64,000 nt of DNA from Tribonema minus. Lineage: Eukaryota; Sar; Xanthophyceae; Tribonematales; Tribonemataceae. The stretch is from positions 868,001 through 932,000 of the forward strand of contig JAFCMP010000146.1 of NCBI GenBank assembly GCA_017506865.1, written 5' to 3'. A program made the translations under genes and the position numbers. The notes under the pieces were generated by a model. The model was not told where the DNA came from. It worked only from the letters and a program-made list of their open reading frames with translations, and ran no database searches. Below, in pieces: positions 163 to 58,510 of the stretch (its first letter is position 1; every line of letters starts with the position of its first letter).

Positions 163-3100
163 GTGGGAGTGGCGGCAGAGAAAGAGTACGGGCTCGAGCG
201 CGCTCTGGCCAACATGAAGGCAAGCGACTGAGTGGCTGAGAGCGTTGCACGTGGCAGCCTTTGCAGATTTTAATTCAGATGCTGCTGAAGGCGCAGAGTC
301 TGGTGCTCAGTGACCTACAACAGGTTTCATCATACTAGTGAGTTTATTATTCTTTGCACGGTAATGCTGAAGTACTGTGATAGCGAGACTGTGCGTGCGC
401 ATACTATCTGTGGTTGAATGAAAGAGGGGTCTGGTACGGCTAAGACCACTGGTACAGCTCAAATTGTGGGTTGTGTGCTCACTCAAGTGGGCGCTAAGAG
501 CAAGCAGAACATCAACAAACTGCAGATAAATAAGTTGAGGTCGACAGGGCTTCTCTCATTGGCATACAGGTGGACGTCAGAGTGAAGCCAACGCAGAAAA
601 TGATTTTACGTCACGCATGTCCTTACGAGCATCAGAACAAATGGCAAGAAAACGGAATGTTGCGACAATGAGCACGATCAAAACTACTACTACTAACAGC
701 CTTCAACTGCTACCGCTTCTACTACTCGGTCTGCAGGAGGAGTGGAGGAGCGTCGAGTTTGAAGTCAAGCCGTACAAGGAGACGGGCACGTGGGTCGTAT
801 CGGGCGTCGATGAGATCATCGCGCTGCTTGACGATCACATCGTCAAGACGCAGACCATGCGCGGATCGCCATACATACGGCCCATCGAGGCAGAGTGTCG
901 CGCCTGGGAGATGCGCCTCAAGTACGCGCAGGTACATGGTGGCCTCCATTTGTATTCTTACGTACTTGTTTTGTACTTGTTTTGAACTCTGATGCACTGA
1001 CCATGCGCGGCTCGCCGTACATACGGCCCATGGAAGCGGAGTGCCTCGCCTGGGAGATGCGCCTCAAGTATGCGCAGGTGCACGGATGGCCTTTGGTGTT
1101 GTGATGTACTTGATGTGTACTGTTTCGAACCCCTGATGTACTGGTCCATCGACGCAAAGTGCCGCGCGTGGGCCTCAACTACATGTAGGTACATTGATTG
1201 CCTCTAGTGTTGTGATGTCAGACTTGTTCTGTACTTTCTTTGAATTCCTGATGTACTGTACCCGGCCCATGAAGGCAAATCACGCCTTGGGAGGTGCGCC
1301 TCGAATACGCGCAGGTACCACGGCACTTGAATCCAGTGCGCACCACTGATGTACTTTTAAGGTGCCGAGATATATAGACGTCTGCGGTTGGATCGGTCGA
1401 CACCGTGCCAGCGTGCTGAGCACTGCTGACGAACTGCAACAGTCTGTGCGCAACGCCCTACCAGTCAAGTTGTAACTCTGCTGAAATGCTGAAAAACGCC
1501 GCTGGCCCTGCTCACATGCTGCTATGCACACAGGGTCTGGTGGATGAGTGGGTTGCCTGCCAGAGGACGTGGCTCTACCTGGAGCCCATCTTCTCGTCGG
1601 AGGACATCATGCGCCAGCTGCCAACCGGTGAGCGCTGCTGTTTTGTTGATGTGCTTCGACAGGAACCGCATGTGTTGCATGAGGTGCCATGGCAGTTTCA
1701 CAACTGCAATGCGTATACTTGCTCATTGGGGCACATCAAGCCATGTGTTCTGATGTGCCACCTTCATCCCTGCACATGCTCTACATTGATGGTGCGAGCT
1801 ACCATCTGTGTGCTGTACTGCTCTCACCACAAACGGCCCCGGGCCGGATTGTGAGCTGTTTATTCCCATGCACACACATGCGCATGTAATATGCATACTT
1901 GAAAGTGTATGTGCTTCATCACAAAATACACTGATACGGTACCGCTTCCGTGCAGAGGCCCAGCGGTTCAATGGTGTTGACGCACTCTGGCTCAAGACAC
2001 TTGAGTTCAAAGTTTCGGCGATCCTGGCAAAAAAATGGAACTTGCACATGCATCAAAGAACATGATTCCAACTACCTTACTATACTCGTTTTGTGCAGAG
2101 GCCCGGCGGTTCAACGGCGTCGACGCCCTCTGGCGTAAGACACTCGAAGACACGCACAAGGACCCCAACTTCATGGCCCAGGCGGATCCGGACAAGAAGC
2201 TGGAGGAGAAGTTCAAGGCCGCCAACCAGAAGCTGGAGGAGATTCAGAAGGGTATGTAGTAGGCATACTGCCATGTGTATGTGTGTCTTGCGATGTTATT
2301 TGTTTGATGTTGGCCTGAAGGAGTTGAGCCTGGCTGCTGCAGACCGTGCACATGCGCAGGGGGGCCATGATGCACATGTGCAGGGGGGGCATGATGTTTG
2401 CATGAACCAGCTGACACTGCAGGCGCTTGAAGTCTTGGAGCTGTGACACGCATACCTTTACACGCATATGTTATGACAGAACAGGGGCGGCGCTCGATCA
2501 GAGGCCCCGCACAAATCAGTTCGAGGACCTGGTGATGTACTGCAGAAGTGCACATCTCCACTGACGTGCACCTAGAAGTTTATTTATGCTGTCCTCGCTC
2601 CTGTGTCGACTGGCAGGCCCAACAACCAACCTCACAGGACACAGCTGACGTGCAGCATTTCCCCTTTCCTATCTCATAGGACGTGAGGCTTCTATGCTTT
2701 GGAAGGTTGGCCTTCCAATCCAAACCAAACACCTGGACTTGAACCCTATAGTACGACACTGCGTGCCTTGCAATTACTTGAAGTACAAGACTGTAAAACT
2801 CAATTTAAGCACGCCAGTTCTGACAGTACTCAACGTGTCTGTTGCTCCCTTGCTCCGCCTTGTGCGTGACAGGCCTGAGCGACTACCCTTCAACTACACT
2901 GCTGCAAAACCTCATTATGCTCACTGTGGCTTACAGTTTCTGACAGCAAACACTGTGTTCATTTCTCCCTTCACCACATTGCGCGTGACAGGCCTCAGCG
3001 ACTACCTGGAAATGAAGCGGCTGTACTTTCCACGCTTCTTCTTCCTCTCCAACGACGAGCTGCTGGAGATTCTCAGTCAGACCAAGGAGCCACGCGCAGT

Positions 3101-5651
3101 GCAGCCGCACCTAAACAAGGCCTTCGAGGGCATTGCCAAGTGCAAGTTCGAGTCGGACTTGAAGATCACGCAGATGATCTCCGCGGAGGGCGAGGTGAGC
3201 GGAGTGCACTCGGAGTACACATGGAGTGCGGCATGCACGTGGGTTGTACTCATACAAGCTCTTCAAAGGGCATCGAGTGCAAGTTCAATATGAAATTCAA
3301 CATTACCCGTGGTGACCTTTGCGTAAGGCAGGCTGTGTTGAACACACGTCAAGTTCAAACCGAGCAAACAGGGTGTGGGGCAGCTAGAGAAGCCTCATGA
3401 GGGATGCGCAGATTGTTTGGTGCATGGATTCAGTAGTCTAGAGGGCCTTGAAGCAACCACACACGTGCACAATAGCAAGATTTGCTGACTGACTTGCTTG
3501 CATTGAATCACCATTGCTCAGCAGTTGCTGCCACCAACCCGCACGCGCCCCGCTACAGGTGGTAGCCCTGAACAGCTTCACGTCGTTTGCTGCATGGATG
3601 TAGTATAGAGCATTCAAGCATCTAAACATACGCACAGAAGTAGGAGCAGTGACATACGTGCTTCTATGCTTCAGATTTCAATCACCAGTGCTCAGCAGCT
3701 GCCTCAAACCCGCGCGCACCGCTGCAGGTGGTCGCCCTGAACAGCTTCGTCGACCCCGAGAGCGCCAGCAACAAGGGCAACGTCGAGCGCTGGCTGCTGG
3801 AGCTCGAGGGCATGCAGTGGCAGTCGGTGCGCACGCAGACGGTCAAGGCGCTGGAGCAGTACCCGCGACAGCCACGCGAGAAGTGGGTGCTGGAGTGGCC
3901 CGCGCAGGTGGTCCTTGCCATCAGTCAGGTGCGTCACCGCGTAGCACTTCTTTGACTCAGTAGTTGAAGTACGTGTGGTGAAGCGCGGTTGTGGTGGTCA
4001 CAGGAGTCCACGGTGCTTATGGTAGCAGCACTTGCGGAAGCTGTGGGGAAGTAGGTGCTGGAGTGGCCCGCGCATGTCGTCTTGACCATCAGTCAGGTGC
4101 GTCACCGCATAACACTCCAAAAGCACATAAGTTGAAGTAGCGGGTGTGGTAGAGTGCGGCTGCGCTGATCGAAGGGAGTGCGGTGTGCTTGCTGTAGCAG
4201 CACCAGAGCCATCTGGAGTGGCCACAAGTCAGGCGCGTCACACATAGCACTTCATTACTTGGAGTAGTACTTTGTGGGTGTGGTAAAGTGCAACCGCGTT
4301 GACCACATTCATAAACACAGGCCTCATTCGTGAACACAGGCCTTTGTTCCCATGCATCTGTCCGCGTTTCAGGTACTGGTCGCATGAGGTGACCAATACC
4401 CGCAAACGCATGAATCCACACGTGAACAAATGAGTGAAACACGATCACAAACGCACGCCTTGTTCTGAAGTGTGAACACTTGTGTTCGTACTTCTGGTGT
4501 ACTGGACGAGAGAGGTGAACGACGCCTGCGTGCATGAAACCACGCATGAACGCATGAGTGAACACGATCATGATTGCAAGCCGCTTGTTCCAACGTATTC
4601 ACGCCTCAGGTGTACTGGACGCGTGAGGTGACCGATGCCATAGGGCATGGATAGCCATAGGGCAATTCAGACGTGAAGATACACGAGTGAACACACTCAT
4701 GAACGCACATCGTGCGTGCCGCTCGTTTCATGCGTTCACGCCTCAGGTGTACTTACTGGACGCGCGAGGTGACCAACGCCCGCATGCATTAATTCACGCG
4801 AACTCATGAGTAACACGATCACGAGTGAACCCGTTCATGAACACACCCCTCTTCTCATGCGTCCACACCTCAGGTGTACTGGACGCGCGAGGTGACTGAC
4901 GCCATAGGGCGCGGCAGCGGCGGCCTCGCCAAGCTCGAGAAGCAGCTTAATAAGCAGCTTCGGGACATCACGCTTCTCGTGAGGGGCCCCCTCTCCGGCC
5001 TTGAGAGGAAGACCCTAGGAGCGCTGTGCACCATTGATGTTCACGCGCGCGACACTGTCACGCGCATGGTGGAGGCGAGCCATATCTTCAACTCGTACAT
5101 TCACCACTTTTGTCAATGCATGCTCAGGAGTGTGGAACAGCCCAGTCGATGCGTTAAGCTTGCTACGTGAGTCTAAATACCACCTGCAATACAAAATTGT
5201 TGACACAAATTCTCAGAGGAAGGTCCCTCAGATTGCTATGCGCCATTGACGTCCATGCGCGCAACACCGTCACACGCGGGAACCGCAACTTTTGCTTGCA
5301 CTTTTGCAACACCGCAACGCATGGGGAACTGCAACTTTTGCGTGAAGTTTCGTAGAAAGCTTTATCTTGAATCCGCACGCCCGATGCGCTGCACAGCATC
5401 AGAGGTCGAAAGATGATCCGGCTGCCCGCACAAGCTACAATTTGAGCTACTGCAGGGCCTCACTTTGTTATTCCTTTCAATAAAACTGAACTTTACAACT
5501 TCACTTCAATGCTTAACAGGCCGACGTGCAGCGCGAGGACGACTTTGAGTGGATGAGCCAGCTGCGCTACTACTGGAGCCAGTCCTGGAAGGACGGTCAG
5601 GCCGTCAAAGCCGGCGAAGACACTCTGGTGGCCAGGATCGTCAACGCCAAG
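163..5651 (+). other. Dynein exons 1-8: linker (DHC N2) region
   Basis: These exons give window residues 1-412, the mechanical linker that swings across the AAA ring. Landmarks: KEYGLERAL in exon 1, TQTMRGSPY in exon 2, [14 protein letters not shown] in exon 3, [16 protein letters not shown] and VQPHL in exon 5, [13 protein letters not shown] in exon 7 and QLRYYW in exon 8. Exon 1 was too short for a simple open-frame search; its frame joins exon 2 in phase 0 through a GC donor at 220. Exon 7 also appears to end at a GC donor (5075). Introns 220-736, 932-1533, 2252-2991, 3195-3727, 3929-4873 and 5075-5519 contain degraded partial copies of neighbouring exon edges but no other gene. The run at 4370-4900 repeats the start of exon 7 several times. 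Confidence 0.9.
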
Positions 5652-8600
5652 GTGACTCTCTTACTTGATGCACGCTTTGAAGCATTTGTAATCGTTTTTT
5701 TGTGCTGTGGTGGTGATGTGCCTGCTGTCGTGTGGAGATCGCAACAGGTGCAGTATAGCAGTCGCACGCAGCTGAGTTGTGGTGATGAGCAGTGCTACAG
5801 AACTACTGAAGGTTCAACAATGAAGTTTGCAGGAAAGGAAGGGTGCAGCTGGCGGCTTTGCAGCACGTAGCACCACCAGTTTTTGGTTCACAACTCACTG
5901 TGGTGCTGCTGCTCTGCATGTACACTTGCACTTCAACCAGAGTACCCAAGTGTCTGCGGGACTTTGCATTGTGCGTTTCAGCACTACCATCAGCTGCAGT
6001 AGTACCTGCTGTGTTGAAGTATCAAAGTGCATTCGTGACCTGTGCGTACTGCACTGGAATGGCATTGCTTGGCTAGCGTAGCACCAGTATGACCTTCCAT
6101 ACCTCGTATTCATTATTGACTTCAGGGTTGGAGGTTTATGACGACGGTGGCGGGTTTAAATCTACTGACCATGCACTTGCTCGCCCCTCCACTGACAGTG
6201 CTTGTACGGCTACGAGTACCTGGGCAACACAACGCGGCTGGTCATCACCCCCCTTACTGATCGCTGCTACCGCACCATGATCGGCGCGATTGACCTGCTG
6301 TACGGGGGTGCCCCGGAGGGCCCCGCCGGAACTGGCAAGACCGAAACTGTCAAGGACCTTTCCAAGGCAAGCCGCGCGAAGATGTGCCCGTTTCCTCCTG
6401 CATGTGCGTGCAGTTGCTATTTGTACCCCTGCATGGTATGAACAACATATTTGTTGCATCCCGTGTTGTTGTTATGACAGTGGATGTGCAACGGCGGAAT
6501 TCGTGAGAGCATGGTTCCGTGGCGACGGTTGAGATCTTGGTCCCTCGCAATGTGCCGATTTGGTCTGACGTGCTGCAGACAGACATCACTGCTTTCCGCG
6601 CTGCATGTGTGCACGTGAAACAACACTGGCATTGATCAGCCATGCCTGCCCAGGTCATTGCTATTTTTACGAGTGATTGCCTGAAGCGCTCCCTCGCCCC
6701 GACTTCTGGTTCGTGATTGTATTTACTGACTGAGGGACCCAGCTCAAATGTTCTTCTCGTGAAGTTTGTATATGAAATGTACGACCATTTCCTCTTGCTG
6801 CATCCGCTGTGCACCGGCCGTGGCGATCCAGTGCGTAGTCTTTACCTGCTCCGACGGCCTCGACTACCTCGCCACGGCCAAGTTCAAGTTTTCAGTTGCT
6901 GCAACTCATTTCTGGCGTTCTGCTCACAAACTCCATCATTGACACCGACAACCATAAATGGTTCCGTTGCCTTGTGCTACGTGCTCATTGCCCCAGGCTG
7001 TAGCAATCCAGTGCGTGGTCTTCAACTGCTCCGCCTCTTTCTTGGCATTTGTGGTCATGACTACCGGCTCTGACGGAACTGTTGCACTTTGATGCATACT
7101 TTGTCTCAGGCGGTGGCAATCCAGCGCGTGGTCTTCAACTGCTCCAACGGCCTCTCGACTATCTCGCCACGGCCAGCTTTCAGTTGCTGCAAGTCATTGT
7201 CGGCATGCTGTTCACAATAGCGATGAATGAATGACACATGAATGACACCAACAATTATTGAGTTGCGCTGCGCGCTCGCTTCACAGGCGGTGGCGATCCA
7301 GTGCGTGGTCTTCAACTGCTCCGACGGCCTCGACTACCTCGCCATGGCCAAGTTCTTCAAGGGCCTCGCGGGGTGCGGCTCATGGTGCTGCTTCGACGAG
7401 TTCAACCGCATCAACATTGAAGTTCTCTCCGTCATCGCTCAGCAGATCCTCACCATCAACAAGGCCAAGAAGGCGGGCCTCGACAAGTTCCACTTCGAGG
7501 GCACGTTCATGAAGATCAACCACAACGCGAATGCGTTCATCACCATGAACCCGGGCTACGCGGGGCGCGCGGAGCTGCCAGATAACCTCAAGGTGAGCTG
7601 ACAGCAGCGCTCAGTAAAGTCTTGCCCGCTTGTTCCTGCATGGAACGCGATGACAATTCAGTTCTCGCGTTTGCACTGTTGATTCTCGGCGTGTTGCCAC
7701 TCTACAACTGCATGCATTGCGGTAATGCCGAGCTGCCGGATAACCTCAAGGCAAGCTGACAGCAGTGCTCAGCTCAGTTTTTTTCCACAGTCGTTCCTGC
7801 ATGGCGAACCCTACGACAATTCGGTTCTCGCGTTAGTGCATGTAGTCTTGGTGTGTTGTCACCGTACAAGCGCATGCATTGTAGTAGGCTCAGCTGCCAA
7901 GGCAAGTGCGCAGCGCTGCTCAGCACTGCAGTGCTCAGGTTGTCGCAGCTGAGCCCTGGACTGTTGTAACTGCGAGGCGCACCATGCAAGGGGTTTGTGA
8001 CTTGCGTAAGCGCTCTTGGCCGCAGCGCGTGGCACATTGCAAACCACAAATGTCATGTACATTGACATTGAAACATGACATTCACATGCCGTGTGAGGTG
8101 TGTGCCAGCAAGGCTCAGTCAGCAGCATCGCTGACCACAGTGTTTTGCTGCACGACCGACCGCACCCCCGGTTCGCTGCTTGCACGTGTACCCTGCGCCA
8201 TCATGGCCTTAGACTACTCCCTCACTGCAAAATCCTGGCACCAGTCCACAACTGTACACGCCAGTACACGTCTGACCTGCATGGCTTTGTTGAGCGCTGC
8301 GCAGGCTCTGTTCCGTCCCTGCGCCATGATGGTCCCCGACTACTCGCTCATTGCGGAGATTCGGCTGTACTCGTTTGGCTTCGAGAGCGCAAGGGAGAAC
8401 GCGCAGAAACTCGTTCGCGTCCTGCAGGTATGTTTGCCCCTGCAACTGTTTTTGTTCATCCGAGGAGGCTTGCTGTAGGCATGCTCCGCACATTGCTTTC
8501 ACACGAGTGGGCAGCAAGGCCATTGATGCCAATTCCGATGTCGTTGCAGTACTTCAAGAACAAGATGTAGCGAGGGCTGTTGAGCGCCGCCTACCTAGAG

Positions 8601-11600
8601 GCCGTCCAGGATTATCGGCGCTGATGCATTGCATGTCGAGGCTCGCAAGGCCTTCTTTCGAGTTGGGCGCGCAGTGCGCTGTCATCGGGTGAGATGATTG
8701 CCTGAGCGCTGACACGAAAAAAAAATCACTATGTGGGCGTTGCAGCTGTTAATTGTGAACAAACAGCTGTTCAACCATGAGCATTGCAATGGTGGACTGA
8801 TATCATACAGGGGGCTGCCGCTGCGCTGTAACCCGAACCCTAACCCTAACCCACCCATCCTCGCCGTTTTCTCCAGACTACAGCACACTACAGTGCACCA
8901 TCCTTCGGTCAATGCTCCGACCCAACAAATGCAAATCTACTGAGCATCTGGCACTTGCCCGTGCATCATGCTGCGGTCTCACCGCCTCCCTCACAGCTGC
9001 CCTCGGAGCAGCTGTGGAGTCAGAAGCACTATGACTACGGCATCCTTACACTCTGCGAGTGCACAGCTACTGAGCGTCTGACGCTTAAATCTCGCATCAT
9101 GCTGTGGTCTCTATGCCTCCTCACAGCTGTCCTCAGAGCAGCTGTTGAGTCAGAAGCACTACGACTACAGCATCCTTACAACTGTATGCACTCTGCAAAT
9201 GCACACTTACTGAGCATCTGACACTTGCCCGTGCATCACGCTGCGCTGTCACCGCCTCCCTCACAGCTGTCCTCGGAGCAGCTATCGAGTCAGAAGCACT
9301 ACGACTACGGCATGCGCGCCGTCAACTCCATCCTGGTGGCGGCGGGCAACCTAAGGCAGCTGCTGGGAGATGACCCCGCGTGGACCGAGCCCAAGATCGT
9401 TCTGCGCTCCATCAACGACGTCAACCTGCCCAAGTTCACAGTTGAAGATCTGCCGCTCTTCAAGTGAGCCATCATCGCCACTGTACATAGGCTTATATTG
9501 ACTGGGGGTGGTGGCAATGTAGGCTTTTTCTGCGAGGTAATGTCAATCCTCCCAACTTCACTGTTGAAGATGTGCCGCCCTTCAAGTGAGCCTTCATGCG
9601 TGTGATCTTCCCTTGCGGCAGTGCTGAATGCAAACGTTAAGCCCCACACCTACGTGCATCAATGAACGATAGCACCGCTTGCTGCAAACTCAAACTTGTG
9701 ATGCAGGGGTATCACGAGTGACCTGTTCCCAGCTGTGGACCTGGGCCAGTCTGACCACGGCGCATTGCTGAGCGCTGTGGAAGCGGTGTACTTCAGTGAC
9801 CAGTACCAAACCCCATGTTGCAATTTGACACCCACCTGCACCAATGAACCATGGCACCTGTTTCACAAACTTATACTTATGCTGCAGGGGCATCACGAGT
9901 GACCTGTTCCCGGGGGTGGACCTGGGCCAGTCCGACCATGGCGCGTTACTGAGCGCTGTGGAAGCGGTGTGCACGGAGGGCGTCCCCGTGGCGCCGGGCA
10001 GGCCGCCGCAGCGGCTGCAGGCCAACTCGTCGTGGATCAAGAAGGTCACGCAGCTGTACGAGATGGTGAGCGCTGAGGCTGCTAATAAGATGGATGTATA
10101 TGGGTAAAGTTCATGCAGCTGCACGAGGTGATGCACGCAAAACAATGGTTGTGTTTCGGAGTATCTGGAGAAAAATGCTGCGGCTGTGGGATCCTCATTG
10201 ACTAAGGCATTGTGTGAAGTTAGTGAGTGATGGTGGGTGTCCCGGTGGTGAGTGCTTGTTGCAACCAGACATGCCCGGCAGAGGGAATGCGTGCGCTGCG
10301 CCAACATTGCCAGTCACATGTGGCCGTGTGACAGCACGGCGGGGTTGTAATGCCATTGCGCACACCCGCATGGCATCTTGTTTGCTGAATGTGCCATGTC
10401 TGTCTGCCATACCGTACTCCCAAATAAATCACTCCAGCTTTGGCAGCAGCCTGAACATCAGATCTAATCTCAAACCTATGTCGTCTACATGCTGCAGGTA
10501 CTGGTGCGGCACGGTGTCATGGTCGTTGGCGAAACCGGCTCTGGCAAAACGGCCACCATTCACGCACTGGCCAACGCCATGTCGCGCTGCGCAGCGGATG
10601 CCGCCGCGGGCGGCACGCCGTCTAATCTGCCGCCAGTGCAGGCAAGTCATGCTTGCCCCAACACCAGCATTTGAGTTCATTTACTCCAATATTCTCATGT
10701 GATTCTTGTTCTGTATACGCCAAAAACAATAAGTGTCCGGTACAAGCCGAACTGTATAACCCAAAAACCAAGAATGTTCACTCTTTGCGTTGTGGATGAA
10801 GAATCAGACACCTTGAAAAAAAAACAGCCATCATTCAAAGAGATTGCCCCCGCATAGGAAGCTGGCACTATGAGCGTGTGTGGAGTACTGCCCTGCTGGT
10901 CCATCAGAATTCATTCCCAATTCCGGTGCCCAGGTCAAATCCGCACCATGAACGCCAAGTCCATCACGAGCGGAAGTGACGCAAAGTGTCGTCTGAGGCC
11001 AATGAGTCTGCTGCGCACTAAGTAGCGCCCTGACGGTTCCTCACCAGTTTCAATGCCCACGCCGTTCCCAGAACCACACCATGAACCCCAAGTCCATCAC
11101 GAGCGGCCAGCCGTGCGGCAACTTGACGAGAAACACACGTACAAGCAGCGATGGCGCTTGCTGGGGGTTGCGCTGACATTGTATCACTTGGAAACTCATC
11201 CTGGGGTGGCGCCCGAGGCCAATGAACCCACTGCCCTCGCCCCTGACCACACCTCTTTCCTTGGTGAAATACGCAATCGTTTTGAGCAGATCCACACCAT
11301 GAACCCCAAGTCCATCACGAGCGGCCAGCTGTACGGCAATTTCGACGAGAACACGCACGAGTGGAGCGACGGCGTGCTGGCCGTGATCTACAGGAACTGC
11401 GCCAAGGACCCCAGCACGGACAGGAAGTGGGTGCTGTTTGATGGCCCCGTCGACGCCGTGTGGATCGAGAACATGAACACGGTGAGCGCGCGTGTGCTAT
11501 TCGCACGTACACTATGTGACGCGCTTGAGCAAAGCTCAAAAGTTGGAAAGAGAACACGAGCACGGTGAGGGCACATGTGCTGCGCACCTTTATCTGCACA

Positions 11601-32600: not shown

Positions 32601-35600
32601 GCAGCAGGTGAGCAAATAATCATGGATGTTATGCAGAGGGTTTGCATGTGGGTGTTGGTGAAAGCAGCATGGCGGTAGGTAATACTTAATCATGGACTCT
32701 ATGATAATAGTCATGGACTTGATGGTAACAAGGGTCAGCACACAATTGTAGACCTGATGAAAAGGGTGACGACCTGACCGAAGCAGGTCCGCATGTGGGT
32801 GTTGCACATGTTAGCGTGGCAGCAATACTTAATCATGGACTCTATGATAATAGTCATGGACTTGATGGTAAGAAGGGTCAGCACACAATTGTAGACCTGA
32901 TGAAAAGGGTGACGACCTGACCGAAGCAGGTCCGCATGTGGGTGTTGCACATTTTAGCGTGGCAGCAGTGGGTGGCAATTTATACGCCGTTGCTGTAGGC
33001 CTTGCAAATTGGCGGCCAATCTTCTCGTGGGGAAGCTGACGACCTTGCACAAGCAGGTCTGCATGTGAGCGATGCGCAAGATGGCATTATGGCCATCAGT
33101 GTTGCTGTAACATTCAACATTGCGTTGTCTGAGATAACGTGCCTGCGGTATTGTGTTGGCAGCACACCTTGTACATTTTTCTGACACCAGCTCATGATAC
33201 TTCGTACTACTAGTTGTCATATACTTGCCCCAAGGAAGGCCGGGCATCCCGTGTGTTCCTAGGTTTGAGGCCTATGCAGCAATCTACTTTGAACTTCTGG
33301 TACTTATGTAAAAGTATACAGCAATGCTACAAGCCTGATTCTGCTTCATGGCTCACTGGAGTGTCAACTTCAATCTCTCTGAATGATGCAGCTCTCCGAG
33401 GCAGAGGGCCGCAAGGCGACGCTCCAGGAGCAGGTGACGGACTGCAGTAACAAGCTGCGTCGCGCGGAGCAGCTGATATCGGGCCTGGGCGGCGAGAAGG
33501 CCAGCTGGAGCAGGCTCTCCGCAGATCTGCTGGAAAAGGTAATAGGTGTACTTTCTTGAATGACTTCAAGTTTCATGCAGCAGTGCTCTAGACTGGGCGG
33601 CGAGAAGGCCAGCTGGAGTCAGCTGTCTGCAGATCTGCTCGAAAAGGTACTTCAAATGACACTTTCTTGAACAACTCGAGGTTGAATGAAACATCGCTCA
33701 GGTTCTAATCAACATTTCTGTCACGTAACAAAATAAACCCCGCTGCAAGGAGGCTCAAGGCTCGCTGGAATAGGCTCTCCGGGGACCTGCTGGAAAAGGT
33801 ACTTGGAGGAATGTACTTCAAGTACGCCTTCCCTTGATGAAATTGACGCAGCATACAGCACTGCTCAGGCTCTCATCAGCTTGAATCCACCTGATGCAAG
33901 AACGCAGCGGCTCATGGGCTGCTCTTAGGCCGACTGTGAAGGGGACCAAGTCAGGGCCTCCGCAGATTTGGTTTAGTGCATCAGCCACAAACTACCTGTG
34001 TAGTTCTCTGTTGCAGGTGCGTGCCCATTCTTGCTGGTCCACGCTACACCAGTGTGATACCCAATTTATTCATACTCGTGAGCCCATTTCAGTTTTGTAA
34101 CCTCTGTCGCAAACATGCCATGCTCTCACGGACCGCACCCCCCTTCTGTGCCCCCCATCGCCCCCGCGCACCACAACACCTTGTCAGGCGACACCATGCT
34201 AGCGGCGGGCTTCATTCGTCAGCCCTCGAGTCAGTCATCTGCTGCAGCTACGCGAGTGCCTAGTCCTGCTGGACTGCACCGCGCCATGCAACAACATTGT
34301 TGACAATGCGCGCGCTGCCGCTCCACCCCAGTCGCCTTGCACTCTTCTCATGCACCCTCTTGTCCCCCCCCCTCCCCCCCCCCCCCCCCCCCATATTCCC
34401 CTTCTGCATCCTCTACCGCAAGAAGCCTCACGCACTTGCTTGGTGGTGCTTGTTCCCCCCCCCCCCCCCCCCTGCACGCCCCCCCCGTGCAGTACAACAA
34501 CGTGACCGGCGACATCATGCTCGCTGCGGGCGTCATCGCCTATCTCGGCGCGTTCACCAGCGCGTACCGCGAAACCGCCGTCGCGCAGTGGTCAGCATTG
34601 CTCGGCAGCAAGGGCATCGCGTGCAGCGAGAAGTTCGCGCTGGAGGCGACGCTGGGCGACTCCGTGCGCATCCGCAGCTGGGTCATCGCAAAGCTGCCGA
34701 ACGACTCGTTCTCCATCGACAACGCCATCATGCTCACCGAGAGCAACCGCTGGCCGCTCATGATCGACCCGCAGGGGCAGGCCAACAAGTGAGCGTCCAC
34801 TCTGTCAACTTCAACACTGCGCTTTTCAGTTGTGTGCCTTCACCGCATGCCGTTCGGTCTTTCTGTCGGTGATGTGCGGAATTACGGCTGCAAGCCCGTA
34901 CACGCCAGGTGGCGTGGTCTCGGTACTCCTAAGTATTGTGCCGATGTGGAGTCACTGGCCGATGGGTATGCCGGTGCTTGCCACATTGGTGTGCACCACC
35001 CCTGATGTGCAATTTGCCTTTACTCTTACTGCACATAGACTTGAAAGCATTTGTTTGTTTGCACTTCGACCCTTTGACCATGATAGCGTCGGCGACACAA
35101 TACACCACAAACGGTACCTGCGCTGCGCTCGTTTATGTGCTTGTCAACACACTGTAAGGCGCACAGATTGGGCTTAGCTCATAGGTGCACCCATTTGACA
35201 GCTGTTTTGAAAGGTGCCATTAAATTTGAAGTCCAGTTGAGCGTTGATCATGGCGCTGCTGATTCCTCGTACTCATCCCCGAGAGAAGTTGCCATGTGTG
35301 TCGCAGTGCAGGGGCGTTGAGCAAATGGAGGACGTGGACAGGGCCCCCTGCGCTAGTGTGCTCACAGCTCACACTACCTTTCGCGCACGCGCTTGCATGC
35401 ACGCAGATGGGTGAAGCGCATGGAAGAAGCGCATCAAATCAAGGTCGTCAAGCAGAGCCAGGCCAACTTCCTCCGCACCATCGAGAACGCCATCCAATTT
35501 GGCTCCCCGATCCTTCTGGAGAACGTTCCTGAGTCGTTGGACCCCGTTCTGGAGCCCGTTCTTCTGAAGCAAGTCATCACGGTTGCTGGCCTCTCTACGA

Positions 35601-38600
35601 TACGGTTGGGCGACAACCCAGTGGAGTACGATCCGAACTTTCGTTTGTACATCACCACCAAGCTGGTCAACCCGCACTACCCGCCGGAGCTTTGTGTGAA
35701 GGTGGGTCCATTTGTTGATGTTTGGCTTGTCCACTCCAGTCACCTGCTGCTGTGTGGGCGCTATGAAAGGCGTCAATGACCAGCAACACACCAGCGCCTG
35801 GCCAGTTTCAATTTGTGCATCACCACCACCAGACGGGTCATGCACAGTGTCCGTTCGAGTCTTGTATCTCTTGGGCCACATGCGGAGCTCTGCTCTTGAT
35901 TTGCTGCGAGTGTACACTGAATCAGTCCACCGAACGCGCATACTTCAATACATACACATGCCTCGCTACGGCAAGACTCGCAAAGACCGCCAGCTCACCG
36001 CAGCGTCACCTCCTGCGCTGCCCAGGTGAACTTGCTGAACTTCATGGCCACGCAAGAAGGGCTCGAAGATCAGATGCTGGGCATTGTCGTGGCCAAAGAA
36101 GAGCCAGAACTAGAGGCGCGACGCGAAGCCCTCGTGCTAGAGGACGCGGGCAACAGGCGCATTCAGAAGGAAGTTGAAGATACCATCCTCGATCTGCTGC
36201 GGAACAGTCAGGGGAACATTCTGGACGACGAGGTGCGTTCCGCGCGGAAGCGTGCTGCTGCGTGCGCTGAGTGCGGTCCTGCCTACGCGGTCGATGAAGC
36301 GCAAGGGCCACAGTGCCCCATGCTGAGTGTCTTTGTTGCGCAAGGACCACGATGCTCCATGCTGAGTGTAAACCTGCCTGCGTGAAGAACGTAACAAATC
36401 GGAGGGGCCACGCCTGCCCCATTCCTGTCCGTGACTGTCGGCATCACGGTCTGCGAGCTCTTAAAAAACAGTGCTGGTTGCAGAGCGGTGACTTGTCGCT
36501 TCCGCTGCGGCGCTGCACCCTACGACAGGTCCTCATCGACACCCTGGCGCAGTCCAAGGTGACCTTCAACAACATTGAGCGCAAGGTCAAGGAGGCGGCC
36601 AAGACGCAGGAGACGATGGCGCGCACGCGCCGCGGCTACGCGCCCGTCGCGTTCCGCGCCTCGCAGCTCTTCTTCTGCATCGCCGACCTGAACAAGGTGG
36701 ACCCCATGTACCAGGTACGAGCAGTTGGTGGCAAAGTTCAAGACTAAGTTGAAGTAGAGTTACGCACTCGTCGCGATCCGTGCCTCGCAGCTCTTCTTCT
36801 GCATCGCGGACCTGAACAAGGTGGACCCCATGTACCAGATGTGAGCAGTTAGTGGAGAGCTTCAAACCAAAGTTGAAGTAGATATATGCACCCGTCATGT
36901 TCGGTGCCTCGAAGCTGTTCTTGTTTTGCATCACTGACCTGAATAAGTGGAGCCCATGTACCAAATGACCAGCTGGCCGCATCACCACTCTGTACTGTGC
37001 ACTTCAATCATTGACAACACATTGTTTTCTCTCCCTACTGCAGTACTCCCTGGAATCAACCTGTACGAGCTCACATGTACTTTCCCTCATGCCCCCCTCT
37101 CACTGTGCTGCACTGTGCTGCAGTACTCCCTGGAGTGGTTCATCAACCTGTACGAGCTCGCGATCGCCAAGGCCTCCGAGGACGCAGCAGTGCTCGCCGC
37201 CAGCGCCGGCGCCACAGCGAGCATCATCTCTCTGGAGGAGCGGCTGTCGCGGCTCAACGAGTGCTTCACGCACTTGCTGTACGCCAACATCTGCAGGAGC
37301 CTGTTTGAGAAGGACAAGCTCCTCTTCAGCTTCCTCCTTGCCGTGAAGGTGCGCGACATAACCTGCAAACGCTGCATATGCATGAACTAATTGAAAACTT
37401 TCCCAAGGGTAATAGGGTTAGGGTTAGGTTAAGGGTTAGGAGACAGGTTCGGGTTAGAGTTTCAGGGTTAAGGTTAGGGTGATGGGTGAAATGTTGAGGT
37501 TAGTTAGGTTAGGGGTGGGGTTCGGGTTAGGGTTGCTAAATGCGCCCCCCCCCCCCCCCGCCCCCCCATGCTCACGCAAGCGGCTGTAATGGTGACATAT
37601 TGACAACAGAGCGACATTGTGCAGCTTTCATGTCAGCAAACACTTTCTTCCAAAGTATGCTTCCATGTCAGCAAACGCATATGCTTGTTGTTACAGTATT
37701 GTGAACCGGCAAGTGCATGTTCAGCGGCTTCAGCGGCTTGGTGGCTCTCATTATGTACAATCTCCACACAGTGGATGCTGTTTGCGCCCAGCTAACCGCA
37801 TGTGAGGGATGACCAGAGGTATCTCTCTCTGTCAAACCTCTAGTTGTGATGATTCACGCTGTCTCCAAGGAGGCAGAACTGCAGAAATCAAAAACTGCAA
37901 ATCGACTGCACAGAGGCACCTAAGCCTTGACGCAAGACTCGGACAACCAATCCACCATTTCTCTCCTTCAAGAACTGTCAGCGCCACACTCTGACACTGA
38001 CACATGCCTGTCTTCAACTCTTGGCACGTCACACCCTGGCACTGATACATGCCTGTTGAACACGCCCTTGTAGGTTCTGGGCGGCAGCGGCAGGCTGGAT
38101 GCTGGCGAGCTTCGTTTCTTGCTGCAAGGCGCCACCACCATGGACCTAGAGAGGCCCAATCCCGCCCCCAAGTGGCTCTCTGATAGGTCCTGGGGGGAGA
38201 TCCTGGCTCTGGGCAGGTGAACTACTGAGTCTACATTGCGTCATGTCGAAGTGGTTTTCAACGTGATGGTAGATATAACAGAGACAGTGAGGCCGCAGAC
38301 TGTTCACCTATGACAAACGCCCACAGTTGACAATGTTATCAAGCAAAGCTTCACATGAAAGGATCACCTGCACTGATGTAGATAGATAAACTCAAAGCAT
38401 TGCAGAGGCCCTGACGGATGACAATCTTGCCAAATGTGGCTGCCTTGTGCAAGCCTTGTGAGAAACGTGTGGCAGCATGATGAAGCAACTACCGCAAATT
38501 GGCGTGCTTTTGCAAGCGCACCTCCTTTAACCCAGCACTGTAACTGGAGGCCACCCATTGCTACACATGCCTCACATCACACCCTCGCAAGGTTAACCTG

Positions 38601-41600
38601 CCCCTACTGATTTCGGTTACACATGTAACTGTTGCAGGGCCGGCACAATGATTGGCGTGGACAGAGACATAGAGAGCAGGCTGTCTGAGTGGGAAGCTGT
38701 GTTCTGCGACACAAGTCCCGCTGCGCGGTTAGAAGCCCTCGTGGGGGAGCGCTACCACCGGTTCCAGGTAGGGTTAGGGTTCGGGTTCGGGGTTAGGGTT
38801 AGGGCTCACTGTGGTTTCAGGTAGGATGAGTATTAGGGTCGGAGTGGGCATGCATTCACGTAGTAGCAGCGTACACGTGACGTCGTTTAAATGTATGATA
38901 TGTTGTTGAGCAGGGCATGTGCGTTTCGGGCGTGTGATTCGCTTGCGGACACCGGTGCGGAAACGGTTTTGCGCCTGCTCAGAGCCCTTGGCGATCAGCC
39001 ACAACAAGACGGCACATGTAACTGCTGATGTAGCGCATCAGCACCGACCCGCGACAGTCTTCGTCCAGCATTACAGTGATGAGGTACTGACATAGTGCAG
39101 TACTACGGTAAGTCGCCTTGCAGAATCTTGTATGTACACGGCTTGCATGTGCATCTCACCCTGTCAGCACGCCCTGCGCCGGTGCTGCGCGTCATTGCAC
39201 TGCGCTGGAGAGTCACCTGACGTCTGTTGGCACGTCACCTGCGCTCTGCATCACTTCAGGCTTGAGAGTACAAGACCTGCATCAATTGGACTGAGAGGTA
39301 CAAGACCTGTGTTGTCGGTGTTGCTGATGCCTGCGCCTGCTGCGCGCTCCCGCGTCGATGATGCTCACACTGCACCGCATTGGCCCTAAACTTATCATTT
39401 GTTTTCTTGGTGTTATGTGCAAATTGCAGCGCCTGTGCCTGCTGCGCGCGCTCCGGCCTGACATGGTGGTCCCAGGCGTCATGTCGTTTGTGGCAGCAGA
39501 GGCAAGTGAAACGAAAACATGTTACACATGGCATGTGGACAGGGCTTTAAAGCAGTTGACGCTGCTGCTGCTGCGCATGCGTACACTTGCCCAGCAGCAT
39601 CCTCTTGCATTTTTGCATGATGAGGCATGTGTGTCGGAGGCAAGTCATGAAGTTGTTGCTGTGCTTGGAAGTACAGTACAGTACTTGAAGTACATGGCAT
39701 GCCGAGAGCACTTAAAAGGGATGACTGCAGCTGCGTATTGCTGCGTGTCGACAAGCCTGCGCGGCAGCATCTTCTTCTTGTAATCTCAAGTCAAGCATGG
39801 CATTGGAACGGCCTGTTGTCGACATCCAGCGCGTGCAAATGCATACATGTAAAGTATCGGCGCTTAAAGCGGGAAAGGTGATGTCACTGCGTGGTCAGTG
39901 GCCGGCGCATGGCAGCTGCCCCTGATGCGCAGCGCATTTCACGGGCTCATTGTATGGTTGAACATTAAACTCGGAGTAGTACAGTCCACATACTGCTCGT
40001 TAGCACCGAGAGGTGCGGCAGCACTCGCGGTGGCGCTGATGGTGGCGAGGGTGCATCAGGCAGCAAGGGGATGGGAGATGCTGGCTGTGAGCAGGAGCTG
40101 CGGAGTCGCGTGTGGTGAGGATACGGCTTTGGGCAGCAGCAGGGGATATTGGAACATGGGGATACGGATAGCATCAGGGCACACTGTAGATCGTTTGCTT
40201 GAACACGCAAGAAAGAGAACCTCGGCCAGGCACGTCAGCGGCGTGCTTAGGCAAGGAATCGAGGACCGGGCGCCTCTGGCCCAAATGTATACTAGAGGCA
40301 TAACCGCGGTCCTCCGGCGTTTTCGCTCAAGAGATGGAGACATCGGCTACGATAGGTGTGGCTCAGACTGGGTGCCGCTGTGTCTGCCCCCCATGAGTCT
40401 AGTACAAGCCTGCAACGCAGGGCTCTAAGGGCCCGTCCGATTTTAGTTTTTTGCATTCTTATCCAACGCATCAAGCCCACCTTGGGGCTGCTATAAATAC
40501 AAGATCATAAGTACAGAAGTATATTATACCTGCAGCCCTGATAGCTGAACAACCTCATGCGCTCAATGCTCAGAGTGCCACAGCTTGCTGTCAGCAGTGC
40601 TCAGCATCCGGAGCTGGCTGTTCAAACGCACGCGCTCAGTGCTCAGAGCGCCACAGCTTGCTGTCAGCAGTGCTCAGCACCCAATGCTGGTAACCTGACC
40701 GACGACCTCGAGAATGCTGCATGGCACGCTTTGCAACAAAAGCTGCCATGAAGCGGTCGCTGCCTCTCACTGCAAGCTGACCCCCGCTTTCACTAGGCGA
40801 ACCATTTCCTCGCCTCACCGCATCCCCCCCCCCCCCCCCTTCTCGCCCCCTCACTCCCCCCCTGCAGATGGGCTCCAAGTACATTGAGCCGCCGCCCTTT
40901 GACCTGATGGCGTGCTACCGCGACTCCACCTGCTCCAGGCCGCTCATCTTTGTGCTCACGCCGGGCGCGGACCCCATGACTGAACTGCTTAGGGTCGCTG
41001 ACGAGCTGGGGTTCGGCGGGAAGCGCATGGCATCCATCAGTCTGGGGCAGGGGCAGGTGCGTGCAATGAACGTTTTCAGCGTGCATGTATGAGCGTGGAT
41101 TTGAGACAAAGCCAGACTTGTTTCGCAGCAGAGCAGGCGGGCTGTTCGCACGCTGCATGTGTGGACCGGCACTTGCTTCTTTAGTGCCTCGCAGGCTTTT
41201 GCGGTATATACTGCACTGTGCAGGCACTCGTCGGAATGTGCACGCGCTTTGAGTCGACTCTTTGTAGAAATTTGTTTTGTCTTGTGTTCTCTTAGTACTG
41301 AACGTCTGTTAGAAGTGAGTGCATTGCATTCCGCCTCCGGCTACCAGCGCAGCTGGTTCAACTGCCATCATGTAAACGCAGTGAGCATGCAACGGCTGCA
41401 CCAGCCATCATACTCCAACACCCACGCTTTTGACACTTGCCGTGCCTTGTTGAGCACGGGCTGCGGACGGTAAATGTCACCAACTTCAAGTTCATCGCCA
41501 CTTGTGCACATACTTCAGGAAAGCGCAAATCGCGCCAATCTCACTCACACTTTGCTCTTCAAAGCGCCTACTTGAAGTTTATTGTGCAGTATTGATCCGT

Positions 41601-44600
41601 GTCTCTTCCGCGCGCCGCATCGCACAGGGTCCCCTGGCGGAGAACGCCATCACGGAAGCGGCGGACGGCGGCACGTGGGTGTGCCTGCAGAACTGCCACC
41701 TGTGCATCTCGTGGATGCCGACGCTCGAGCGCATCTGCGAGGAGCTCACGCCGGATCGCGTGCACGAGTCGTTCCGCCTGTGGCTCACGAGCGAGCCGTC
41801 GCCGCACTTCCCGACGTACATTCTGCAGAACGGCGTCAAGATGACCAACGAGCCGCCCAAGGTGCGCAGTCATTAGAGTTGAAGTTGAAGTAACAATATT
41901 GAAAAACTGGAATTTGAAGTTGCGACCCGAGCGAGCCGTCGCCGCACTTCCCGACGTACATACTGCAGAACGGCGTCAAGATGACAACGAGCCGCCCAAG
42001 GTGCGTCACCGCCCTTGAATTGAAGTTGAAGTTGAAGTATTGACATGAGCGAGCCGTCGCCGCACTTCCCGACGTACATACTGCAGAACGGCGTCAAGGT
42101 GACCAACGAGCCGCCCAAGGTGCGTCACCCCACTAGAGTTGAAGTTGAAGTATTGACATGAGCGAGCCATTGTCGCACATGCCCACGCATTCTTGTATTG
42201 CAGAATGGCGTTGAGATGGCCTCCGAGCCGCCCAACGAGTCGCGACTTCTGGAAATCACTACAGGGTCTACTCTGTAACTTCAGCCAAAAGCGGAGCTGA
42301 TGTCAAGTTGCTGAGCTGAGTGCCCTGCTAATTGGGGGCAAGCACTGGTTGAAGTGACGTGCAATGTCAACTGTGTCGCAAGTAATTTGAAGCCGCCTCG
42401 ATTTTGCAAGGCGTGATCACGCCTAACACAAACGTATGGAAGATGGCATCCCCACACGATGCAGCACACCAGCACTTGTGCAGTGCATCCCCTCCCCCCC
42501 CCCTCACCTCAATACTATCAAACCTCAACTTAAATCCCCCAAACCTCACCCCCATACCACCAGACCTCAACTTCATCCCCAACGCTTCACCTCCACCCAC
42601 TTCCACACGCATGCGCGCCAACCTCCTCAGGGTTAGGGTTAGTCACCACCACACCGCCAAACCTCAACTTAAACAATGCCTTGTCGAACTTTTGCACAGG
42701 GCATATGTGCAAACCTCCTTAGAGTTAGGGGCAGGTCACCCCGATACCGCCAAACCTCAACTTCAACAATGCCTCCACGTACTTTCACACGCAGGGCATG
42801 CGCACCAACCTCCTTAGGGTTAGGGTTAGGTCACCCCCATACCGCCAAACCTCAACTTCAACCATGCCTTATCGTACTTCCCACGCAGGGCATGCGCGCC
42901 AACCTCCTGGGCTCGCTGTACAACATCGAGCGCGACTGGTTCGCGGGCTGCCAGCGACGACGCGAGTTCCAGAAACTTCTGTTTGGGCTCTGCTTCTTCC
43001 ACGCCACCGTGCGCGAACGGCGCAAGTTCGGTCCGCTGGGCTGGAATATTCAGTACGTGTTCTCTGGACCGGACCTTCGCATCACCATGGATCAGGTAAG
43101 GCCGGCGAACCCTAGCTGTGAACCCTAAAAGCATGCACCTTGCCTGGTTGTTGCATGGTGTAAGGCGCACTGTATTTCAGTGGCGTGTGCGTCAGTTACG
43201 CGCCTTGAAGGGGTGATGTTTCGCACTTGTAACACAAGTCACTTGCACTCCTGGGTGGGCTATTTAGACAGTTTATGCCTGCACGGGCCGTTTGGCAACA
43301 ATCAAGCGAAGGATGCATTACCGTTGTACTGAAGTATACATATAGTAGTTCAAGAGCGTATAATGGCACTGGATCAACTCTTGGGCAAATGGTGGACAGT
43401 AACCTGCTGCAAAGTGCATGCGCTCAAGATGGAACCTTTGCGGAGCTGTTGCTGCACCGCCCATGCCAGAATGTACCATTGCCAGCCAGTTCAATGGCAT
43501 TCAGCCCCACCATATACAGACCGCATTTGCTTGAAACACCACAACATTATTGTCATCTGCGTGCTGCTCTCTCCGTGCCCCCCCGCAGCTGCGCATATGC
43601 CTCGACTCGCTGCGCCATTGACAGCCAGCTCAATGGGAATCAGCCCCACCATGTACTTGAAGTACATACTTTTGCTGGAAAACCACGACATGATTGTCCT
43701 TATGCTGCACTCTGCGCCCCGCAGCTGCGCATATTCCTCGACTCGCTGCTCCGGTGCGTGCCAGACCTTCTCTCTGTCGGCAAAATCCACCCATAAACAA
43801 TCTATTTGCCGTATAGGTACATACTACTTTTGCTGAAAACACCACGACATGACTGTCCTTTTGCTGCACTCTTTCAGCTGCGCATATTCCTCGACTCGCT
43901 GCGTGCGGAAGACCCCGTGCCATATGCTGCGCTGGCGTACCTGGCGGGCGAGTGCAACTACGGCGGCCGCGTAACCGACGACAAGGACCGGCGCTGCCTC
44001 GTGAACGTCCTCAGCGACTTCTACTGCGCCGACATACAGCGCGACGACTACAAGTGAGCACAATTCTGTACCGATTGTGATATGATGGCACTGTTTGACT
44101 CGTGACCAATGACTGCAACAGCGGCGACCACGGTTAGTGATGGAAGGCACTTGCGGCTAACCCCTCCTTGTCACCTAGAGCTCTACGATCTTTTGATTTG
44201 TTTCCATTAGGTAAGCAAACAGATAATACGAAGTTGTGGTGTACTTCAACTACGACTGAGTGCATCACAGTACCGCATCTAGCGGTTGTGACTACAAGTG
44301 AGTGCCCCGCAGTACTGCCGCTAGAAATACTGCAAGAATGCGCAGTTCAGAGGTCCTGATGCCGCTTGCCTAGCCTGCTCGGTTGTCAGTGGCAGCGACG
44401 CTCACTTGTCAAGTGAGCAGTTTGCCACCTCTCCTGTTGTAGTTTCTGCAGTTCACTGTTGACTGACCCCAAAAACTACTCTACTGTCACGTGAATGTAC
44501 CGATGGAGACTTTGTGCGACTAGTCCTCTTTCTGTGAGGTACCGCCTCATAGTCGGGTGCACATGTGGCCCTTGCGGCTCACAGCAGAGCGCGTGCAACA

Positions 44601-47640: not shown

Positions 47641-48032
47641 CGGCGCGGCGCGCTAGTGATTTAAATGAAAGTGATATGAGGTGTATCCGCGGCGGTCTGA
47701 TGTGCTATAGCGCTTCGTTCGGTCTACATACCGAATACACTAGACAAGTGTCATGCTGTACGTCGCGAAAAATGCGCCCAGGGTTAGGGTCAGGGTTAGG
47801 GTTAGGGTCAGGGTTAGGAGGTAGTGGCTGGCCGCAGCATGTGCGTGCAACGACCTTGACGTGCTCCAGATACCATTTGACCATGTTCAAACGTCTGACC
47901 CTGTGTGTCCAGCTTCGAAGCAAGTGAGCTCCGAGTTTGAATGAACTTGGACCAGAAATTTCATTGCCGGCAGAATCTGAGCAATTGCGCCGAATCGCCT
48001 GCTGGGTTCGCGGAGACAGACAGAGGCGCGCT
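47641..48032. other. Intergenic spacer between dynein and metalloprotease genes
   Basis: This 392-bp gap must hold the dynein 3' UTR and the protease promoter. It contains an interrupted TTAGGG/TCAGGG tract at 47777-47819. I see no clear polyadenylation signal or TATA box and no open frame with a recognisable product. Confidence 0.6.
47777..47819 (+). repeat. TTAGGG tract between the two genes
   Basis: Seven units of TTAGGG/TCAGGG about 140 bp after the dynein stop codon. Confidence 0.85.
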
Positions 48033-57395: not shown

Positions 57396-57760
57396 GTACC
57401 AAAACCAAAACTCAGTGGTAGACACTCACACTGCAACTTGAATGACAACGAGTGCAAATGACGGCTTAACTACTAGTAGACGCATGAACTGACCGCGAGC
57501 GCTCCGCACAAGTGCCGTTGATTTGCACTCAATTGGGTATCTGCGTGTTGACGTTTGACGAGTGTAGTTTGTGTGCTTCAGTAGTACCGTACGTATGGAC
57601 TTGTATTTATGAAGGCCCAAGGGAGGCCGGGTTGCCTATGCAATCGAAAAGCTTGCGTCAACGCAGCAGCCTAGTCTGCGCTGTGTCCTAGGAGCTTGGA
57701 TACCGGCGCTGCAACACAGCCCAGCATTCGCGCCCCGCGTGTGTACGCCATGACGCGCTC
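57234..57760. repeat. Inverted repeat formed by opposed retroelement 3' ends
   Basis: The plus-strand fragment ending at 57395 and the minus-strand copy starting near 57593 are tail to tail, so their last roughly 165 bp form an inverted repeat separated by about 190 bp. The spacer 57409-57592 has no recognisable feature. Confidence 0.75.
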
Positions 57761-58294: not shown

Positions 58295-58510
58295 CTAGCT
58301 GTAAGGAATCTACATGTCGTATGACAGTATGAAAGTGTCGAAACGACAACCACTCAAACGCCGCCGCCGCCAAATGGCATCTCGGGGTCCTCCCCTACGT
58401 CCTCCTCCATGTGCCCCCCCCCCCTACTGTACGTATGGACTTGTATTTATAAAGGCCCAAGGGAGGCCGGGTTGCCTATGCAATCGAAAAGCTTGCGTCA
58501 ACGCAGCAGC

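Follow-up and report, generated by a model that had tools for sequence, protein, structure and literature searches.

Growth of introns is usually attributed to transposons and to untargeted insertions. The introns of a dynein heavy chain gene of the xanthophycean alga Tribonema minus carry many partial copies of the edges of their own neighbouring exons, here called echoes, and this pattern points to an unusual way of intron lengthening. The gene lies in a 64,000-nucleotide stretch of the assembly GCA_017506865.1 (158 Mb in 554 contigs), on contig JAFCMP010000146.1, positions 868,001 to 932,000 of the forward strand; this whole stretch is referred to below as the window, and coordinates count from its first letter. 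Several described systems bear on such a pattern. In the AGGT model of intron gain by tandem genomic duplication, a duplicated exonic piece becomes a new intron (PMC3443670). For the stwintrons of Lipomyces it has been proposed that the functional donor element of an intron already present was duplicated (PMC7138796), and introners, which are known in algae, are transposon-derived introns that form dispersed families of like sequence (PMC9860276). Interstitial telomeric repeats are inserted at double-strand breaks, and the repair can leave duplicated flanks, with plain duplication in a minority (3 of 66) of the horse loci described (PMC7215372).

Exon-edge echoes in a dynein gene and in other genes

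Each exon edge was compared with its own adjacent intron, and a copy was called at a score of at least 34; introns shorter than 120 bp were excluded from junction testing. The exons come from a coding-potential hidden Markov model bootstrapped on the window, and are thus predicted rather than taken from transcripts. Seventeen predicted exons were removed by hand from the first dynein model, plus all those upstream of -4700, before counting, and the resulting model has 58 exons from -4661 to 44053, of which 52 start inside the window. Copies of the junction's own edge are present in the adjacent intron at 40 of the 114 dynein junctions (one copy at 19 junctions, two at 12, three at 8 and five at 1), and 63 of these 72 copies include the splice junction itself. 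As controls, none of 684 comparisons with non-adjacent introns gave an exon-edge copy, nor did any of the 114 junctions when the adjacent intron was inverted. At a score of at least 30, and with a model in which one exon end was still wrong, 42 of 114 junctions had copies (0.368), against 0.0004 for shuffled introns and 0.0006 for other introns. Compared with itself, the window holds 104 direct and 8 inverted repeats; 84 of the direct repeats are spaced 100-500 bp apart, and of the 94 with a distance below 4 kb, 82 have their start in the dynein gene. The exon-edge echoes are confirmed as real, far above chance and strongly non-random. An initial annotation, made by a model from the letters of the window, had reported edge copies at no fewer than 25 of the 58 exons and had named eleven sets of coordinates; we find them at 33 exons (30 of the 52 that start in the window), all eleven sets hold copies, and both the self-comparison and the comparison with shuffled introns, which it had suggested as checks, bear it out. 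The gene, its echoes and its intron-only repeats are as follows (window coordinates, strand, feature).

737-44053, +: dynein heavy chain gene (single-headed inner-arm type), modelled from its first clear in-window exon; continues upstream of the window
853-1318, +: donor-edge echoes, exon ending 931, 3 copies
1950-2147, +: acceptor-edge echo, exon starting 2099
2818-3006, +: acceptor-edge echo, exon 2992
3415-3748, +: acceptor-edge echo, exon 3728
3880-4203, +: donor-edge echo, exon ending 3928
4373-4910, +: acceptor-edge echoes, exon 4874, 3 copies
5004-5277, +: exon-end copy near donor 5074, stopping short of the junction
6795-7355, +: acceptor-edge echoes, exon 7287, 3 copies
7569-7898, +: donor-edge echo, exon ending 7592
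8926-9313, +: acceptor-edge echoes, exon 9267, 2 copies
9420-9597, +: donor-edge echo, exon ending 9463
9646-9970, +: acceptor-edge echo, exon 9888
10936-11380, +: acceptor-edge echoes, exon 11290, 2 copies
12096-12541, +: acceptor-edge echoes, exon 12487, 2 copies
13345-13604, +: donor-edge echo, exon ending 13415
14195-14325, +: acceptor-edge echo, exon 14314
15362-15708, +: acceptor-edge echo, exon 15620
17970-18540, +: donor-edge echoes, exon ending 18006, 3 copies
21685-22398, +: acceptor-edge echoes, exon 22349, 5 copies
22458-22922, +: donor-edge echoes, exon ending 22523, 2 copies
23335-23575, +: acceptor-edge echo, exon 23535
23614-24012, +: donor-edge echoes, exon ending 23645, 2 copies
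25420-25721, +: donor-edge echoes, exon ending 25462, 2 copies
26369-27003, +: donor-edge echoes, exon ending 26434, 3 copies
27450-27796, +: acceptor-edge echo, exon 27746
28431-28927, +: intron-only direct repeat (one of three in the dynein gene)
30567-30984, +: donor-edge echoes, exon ending 30593, 3 copies
31374-31600, +: acceptor-edge echo, exon 31567
32175-32494, +: acceptor-edge echo, exon 32439
32644-32967, +: intron-only tandem repeat, period 143-147, 98% matches by Tandem Repeats Finder (TRF), a young duplication without exon edge
33485-33801, +: donor-edge echoes, exon ending 33538, 2 copies
34161-34536, +: acceptor-edge echo, exon 34493
36637-36967, +: donor-edge echoes, exon ending 36714, 2 copies
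37038-37159, +: acceptor-edge echo, exon 37124
40544-40690, +: intron-only direct repeat
41786-42235, +: donor-edge echoes, exon ending 41861, 3 copies
42546-42908, +: acceptor-edge echoes, exon 42889, 2 copies, with TTAGGG-type stretches within the array
43476-43903, +: acceptor-edge echoes, exon 43878, 2 copies

The dynein heavy chain is encoded on the + strand from upstream of the window to 44053, and its predicted exons join into one stop-free dynein protein (two exon ends were trimmed afterwards), a 300-residue part of which has 868 relatives. Axonemal heavy chains are the closest matches of one exon, DNAH7, DNAH12 and DNAH6 being among the best. Two protein searches used parts of two dynein genes as queries. 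Ectocarpus (85%, with 56% of the query covered), Aureococcus (69%) and Phytophthora were among the best named matches of one, and Phaeothamnion confervicola (83%), Choristocarpus (83%) and Ectocarpus (80%) among those of the other. These matches point to an ochrophyte close to brown algae and to Phaeothamnion; a search of the genome for rbcL yielded only two fragments, both on large contigs. Five of the 57 predicted dynein donors have GC instead of GT (5074, 6366, 10641, 20846 and 39501). Long open frames (1377 and 783 amino acids) occur in other dynein heavy chain genes of the genome (C146:533499-534335 and C523:665165-666103), in contrast with the intron-rich gene of the window. Within the dynein introns, TTGAAGT is found 23 times in the 5' half and 7 times in the 3' half, and ACTTCAA shows a slight excess in the 3' half (17 versus 12). 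Intron ends could pair through such a bias, TTGAAGT lying near donors and ACTTCAA near acceptors, but the left-right bias is only mild and the idea was set aside.

The comparison was extended to other genes of the genome, as the initial annotation had also suggested. In five dynein-paralogue and four kinesin stretches, where predicted exons that scored below 4 or copied their neighbours were removed before counting, 57 of 174 junctions have echoes. The ten loci made up of these stretches and the window dynein gene together give 97 of 288 junctions, while the controls give 2 of 1644 comparisons with other introns and 1 of 288 with inverted ones. The added stretches were mostly picked for having matches scattered over several pieces, that is, for being intron-rich, and so form a biased sample; echoes recur in intron-rich genes of this genome and are not confined to one gene. 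For unselected stretches only predicted exons scoring at least 15 were used. There, two random stretches plus the window at 44.5-64 kb have an echo at 1 of 56 predicted junctions. Stretches on either side of the window, one lying 10-30 kb before its start (which may in part belong to the same gene) and one covering the first 20 kb past its end, have echoes at 9 of 26. In the dynein gene the density of local direct-repeat families is 8.6 per 10 kb, as against 4.5 for the 20 kb upstream and about 2 both for the window at 45-64 kb and for the 20 kb downstream.

Anatomy, anchoring and decay of the copies

The copied exon part has a median length of 49 bp (interquartile range 39-63, 5-95% range 22-83) and a correlation of 0.25 with exon length. 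It spans the whole exon in 2 of 149 copies, so that the initial annotation was right to set the pattern apart from ordinary exon duplication; on these counts, and with 40 of 43 indels shifting the frame, whole-exon duplication and mutually exclusive exons were rejected. At the ten loci the junction is included in 151 of 167 copies, and copies lie near their own exon, a median of 21% of the way across the intron. Spacing of the nearest copy has a median of 153 with quartiles of 126-181 (91 junctions), which is too broad to conclude that the units are nucleosome-sized. The intron part is usually recognisable: it scored above each of 80 random segments for 63 of the 88 nearest copies. In a minority without a visible intron part (19 of 88) at least five random segments scored equally well. 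Similarity is about 0.9 over the first 20 bp on the exon side and about 0.7 beyond the splice site (gaps allowed), where another junction of the same kind gives a baseline of about 0.55, and the drop past the splice site is likewise present between two copies of one junction. Individual examples were also followed base by base; in three pairs out of a set of twelve the overlapping part had aligned with itself, and these three carry no information. The direct orientation, the nearness to the source and the inclusion of the junction and an intron part all support the view that the copies are local direct duplications across splice junctions. The initial annotation had also seen the copies decay with distance from the exon. 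This did not hold up: at junctions with two or more copies at the ten loci, similarity is higher for the nearest copy than for the farthest one in 12 cases and lower in 15, and a polarity in which the newest copy adjoins the exon was rejected on the same counts.

The repeats are anchored on exon edges to a high degree. Of the 42 local repeat families in the dynein gene, 37 run across a junction, another 2 touch an exon and the remaining 3 are confined to introns, and the earlier statement that only junction-crossing edges are copied is thus nearly true, these three families being the exceptions. For the 100 families of the ten loci the corresponding numbers are 86, 4 and 10, so that 90 touch an exon edge even though the introns amount to 101 kb and the exons to 24 kb. 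If a family must contain a pair that is at least 85% alike over 40 bp, 44 families are junction-crossing and 2 intron-only; with a pair at least 90% alike over 40 bp or more the numbers are 22 and 1.

At codon positions 1, 2 and 3 the divergence of the copies from the exon is 5.8, 6.9 and 15.3%, and that between copies is 12.5, 12.2 and 19.0%. Sites at which the exon differs from all copies are position 3 sites in 23 of 33 cases, and the frame-shifting indels (40 of 43, in 105 copies) led us to reject a protein-coding function of the copies. This is the pattern expected if the copies decay neutrally, as non-coding DNA, away from a constrained exon. The splice dinucleotide is retained by 66 of the 72 donor copies (as GT or GC) and by 53 of the 65 acceptor copies (AG), which by our estimate is about the per-site decay expected from exon-part identity.

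Plain tandem duplication, in which both parts are copied together from one chromosome, predicts that at unconstrained sites the intron part shows roughly double the divergence of the exon part. At the 47 junctions usable for both parts, divergence is 5.4% at positions 1 and 2 and 21.8% in the intron part, and the two are not significantly correlated (rho 0.13, p = 0.40). The intron part is less than 10% diverged at only 1 of the 47 junctions, and in 10 families with no difference at positions 1 and 2 it is still 20.8% diverged. Likelihood models were fitted with the age either free for each family or single for all (47 fewer parameters). With free ages, an intron part that starts 12% diverged with the full neutral exon rate gave a log likelihood (logL) of 1822.8, an exon rate of one half gave 1819.7, only 3 log units worse, and plain tandem duplication gave 1797.6.

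Introns with echoes are longer than those without (median 829 bp for 73 introns versus 500 bp for 71, p = 4e-9), and copies are present at 4 of 60 junctions in introns shorter than 400 bp and at 30 of 50 in introns longer than 1000 bp. Echoes are rarer at exons shorter than 90 bp (4 of 48), where the short predicted exons are the least certain, than at exons of 160-220 bp (32 of 77). A signature of intron birth was found in none of 144 introns: in no case was the upstream exon end copied beside the acceptor, or the downstream exon start beside the donor. The initial annotation had proposed that tandem duplication across splice junctions creates or lengthens introns. Lengthening agrees with these medians and creation does not agree with the missing birth signature; local direct duplication is upheld, but duplication at random sites leaves the anchoring of 90 of 100 families unexplained, and tandem duplication alone does not account for the stronger divergence of the intron part without a further assumption.

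Proposed junction duplication and competing explanations

What has to be explained is the presence of the copies, their direct orientation, their anchoring on edges, their limited reach into the exon, their decay as non-coding DNA and the link with intron length. These are best read as junction-anchored duplication that lengthens introns. Short segments, each with some 50 bp of exon edge together with the splice site and, in most cases, adjoining intron sequence, would be duplicated repeatedly at exon-intron junctions, in direct orientation and often head to tail. Since the copy nearest the exon would leave the message unchanged, the second copy would land silently within the intron and decay there as non-coding DNA, and repeated events would build arrays and a longer intron; events lying entirely within exons would be purged by selection. 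As the agent that steers duplication to exon edges we favour break repair, though it is unproven in this role; our reason is that the intron part of a copy is diverged even when its exon part has not changed. The process may start with breaks in or near exon edges, after which the broken exon end could invade the same exon on the sister or homologous chromosome, and copying could run across the splice junction into the intron and be closed by end-joining in place of re-annealing. Exons would be targeted as the sole conserved islands of homology between diverged introns, and the copied intron part could therefore be diverged from the outset. The diverged intron part is a hint that a diverged homologue served as template, with exons as the only stretches alike enough to invade, and the scarcity of echoes at short exons is compatible with exons acting as such islands. 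We place the whole of this reading, recurrent junction duplication that lengthens introns through exon-anchored break repair, just on the probable side of even. A further reading, that where introns diverge fast the recombinational repair begun in exons overruns the junctions and re-inserts exon edges together with the other chromosome's intron, growth being a by-product, seems to us unlikely; if exon-anchored repair is true, about a third of the junctions of long genes would keep a readable record of each event.

A simpler process would be uniform neutral tandem duplication, in which exonic events are purged and junction events are merely easier to see through their conserved exon side. Several families are indeed contiguous tandem repeats (853-1318, 36637-36967 and 41786-42235, for example), the copies decay without coding constraint, and an intron-only tandem repeat (32681-32967, 98% by TRF) is among the most alike of all. 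We simulated such a process, with duplications placed anywhere, coding ones removed, neutral decay and the same detection, and 55 of 159 simulated families were anchored (22/61, 13/38 and 20/60, or 33-36%; smaller, earlier simulations with few families gave 0-38%), compared with the 90 of 100 observed, which means that the conserved exon side alone cannot yield the excess under the simulated rates. Among pairs at least 85% alike, 24 of 72 simulated ones were anchored, to be set against the observed 44 junction-crossing and 2 intron-only families, and the reach into the exon is far shorter than the spacing of the copies permits. This explanation is already strongly disfavoured, and we consider it very improbable. 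An artefact of assembly or gene model is scarcely credible: the exons are predicted, and the model had at first taken several copies for exons, but the copies differ from their exons by about 9% and hence are not read errors or collapsed alleles, the pattern is present at all ten loci counted, and the joined protein is a stop-free dynein whose 300-residue part has many relatives.

The better preservation of the exon part could be explained in two further ways. Selection might preserve the copies because they act as decoy splice sites, as regulatory pseudo-exons or as alternative ends of exons. The exon-derived part is better kept than the intron part also when two copies are compared (about 0.87 versus about 0.65, with about 0.54 for random). 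It has few gaps (19 of 2390 columns versus 594 of 4054), and in 45 of 61 alignments positions 1 and 2 diverge by less than half as much as the intron part. We consider this improbable, as the indels are nearly all frame-shifting, splice dinucleotides are no better kept than the adjoining exon part, and distances are not multiples of three (remainders 0, 1 and 2 in 26, 23 and 23 donor copies and in 20, 14 and 31 acceptor copies); finding copies through their exon part, moreover, inflates its identity. Alternatively, the arrays might be old and undergo concerted evolution, with gene conversion, or recombination with complementary DNA (cDNA), refreshing their exon part from the exon. This would likewise give higher similarity in the exon part than in the intron part, including cases in which the exon part has not changed, and the sharp fall in acceptor similarity immediately beyond the splice site, from 0.91 at -3 to 0.65 at -4 (no gaps allowed), suits it. 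Conversion between DNA copies should homogenise the adjoining intron bases too, conversion by cDNA should not retain the intronic CAG of acceptor copies at 0.88-0.91, and neither explains why the arrays start at junctions, so that we judge concerted evolution improbable as well.

Several points weigh against exon-anchored junction duplication as set out above. A single past burst, with logL 1790.3 and 47 fewer parameters, is the more economical fit, and the repair step stands on weak statistics because this fit cannot separate a diverged start from a slower exon rate. A single burst would also account for the near-absence of young intron parts, and a slower-decaying exon part or one past burst is also compatible with the data. 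Because copies are detected through their exon part, the identity of that part is biased upwards, and the same picture of exon and intron divergence could result from selection or conversion. A second haplotype of the locus is absent from the assembly, where the coding part has no other strong match. Longer introns have more room for copies, and the length link alone does not separate cause from effect; with the window taken by itself, exon length has a marginal effect (8 of 36 junctions below 120 bp versus 32 of 78, p = 0.06). Telomere-like stretches might betray break repair, but echo zones show no excess of them (8.3 versus 8.5 per 10 kb). Finally, the process is uneven over genes, as the single echo among 56 predicted junctions of unselected stretches indicates.

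Many contigs carry matches to the (TAGGGT)n stretch at 37413-37534 within their first few hundred bases, and others carry them at their ends, so that TTAGGG is probably telomeric in this genome. Further (TTAGGG)n stretches lie at 11834-11869 and 47780-47818, in introns and outside the gene. Stretches of this kind number 85 in 101 kb of introns and 0 in 25 kb of exons; being frequent in introns but no denser in arrays, telomeric filler was rejected as a mark of the arrays, and the stretches may reflect break repair in introns generally, not echoes in particular. Downstream of the dynein gene, a 1113-amino-acid open frame on the - strand (59351-62692) contains a reverse transcriptase domain (PF00078) and is likely a retroelement, and a direct repeat at 57584-59907 (period about 840 bp, 98% alike) overlaps its edge. 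Beyond the window, two downstream stretches about 6.6 kb apart (L012:7228-8437 and L013:3867-5076), which are 87.7% similar across 1210 bp and both contain an internal repeat of period 129, are a probable tandem duplication.

Relation to described systems

Growth through echoes leaves traces that are anchored on exon edges and numerous enough for statistics within single genes, and the echoes allow one to test directly whether splice junctions are targets of duplication. They are also a warning for annotation, as the copies carry splice signals and our gene model called some of them as exons. In the titles and abstract openings of the open-licence literature searched, we found no description of exon-edge copies at a large share of junctions. 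Internal gene duplications were reportedly surveyed by Gao and Lynch in 2009 for new introns and exons in annotated genes; they have in common with the echoes that duplications within a gene can take in parts of exons and introns, and that survey is not known to describe a systematic junction anchoring with a short exon reach.

Introners share with the echoes a mutational process that adds intron sequence in bulk (PMC9860276). They differ in that echoes match their own neighbouring exon, with 2 of 1644 matches to other introns; a genome search with 1.5 kb of the gene gave, besides the gene itself, only matches to its telomere-like stretch among the matches listed of 230. Interstitial telomeric repeats inserted at breaks (PMC7215372) resemble the present case in that TTAGGG stretches occur in the introns of the echo-bearing gene too, and differ in that echo zones show no enrichment of them.

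The AGGT model has in common with the echoes a short tandem duplication within a gene, a duplicated splice-like sequence and added intronic sequence (PMC3443670); here, in contrast, the duplications span an existing junction and an old intron grows, and none of 144 introns has the birth signature. With the Lipomyces stwintrons the echoes share the proposed duplication of the donor element of an existing intron, but the stwintron case described concerns one intron position of one gene and stepwise splicing (PMC7138796), whereas echoes are found at about a third of the tested junctions, at donors and acceptors alike, and include about 50 bp of exon. Among these sources, tandem-duplication intron gain (PMC3443670) and the donor duplication behind stwintrons (PMC7138796) are the nearest published ideas to the junction-anchored lengthening of introns proposed here.

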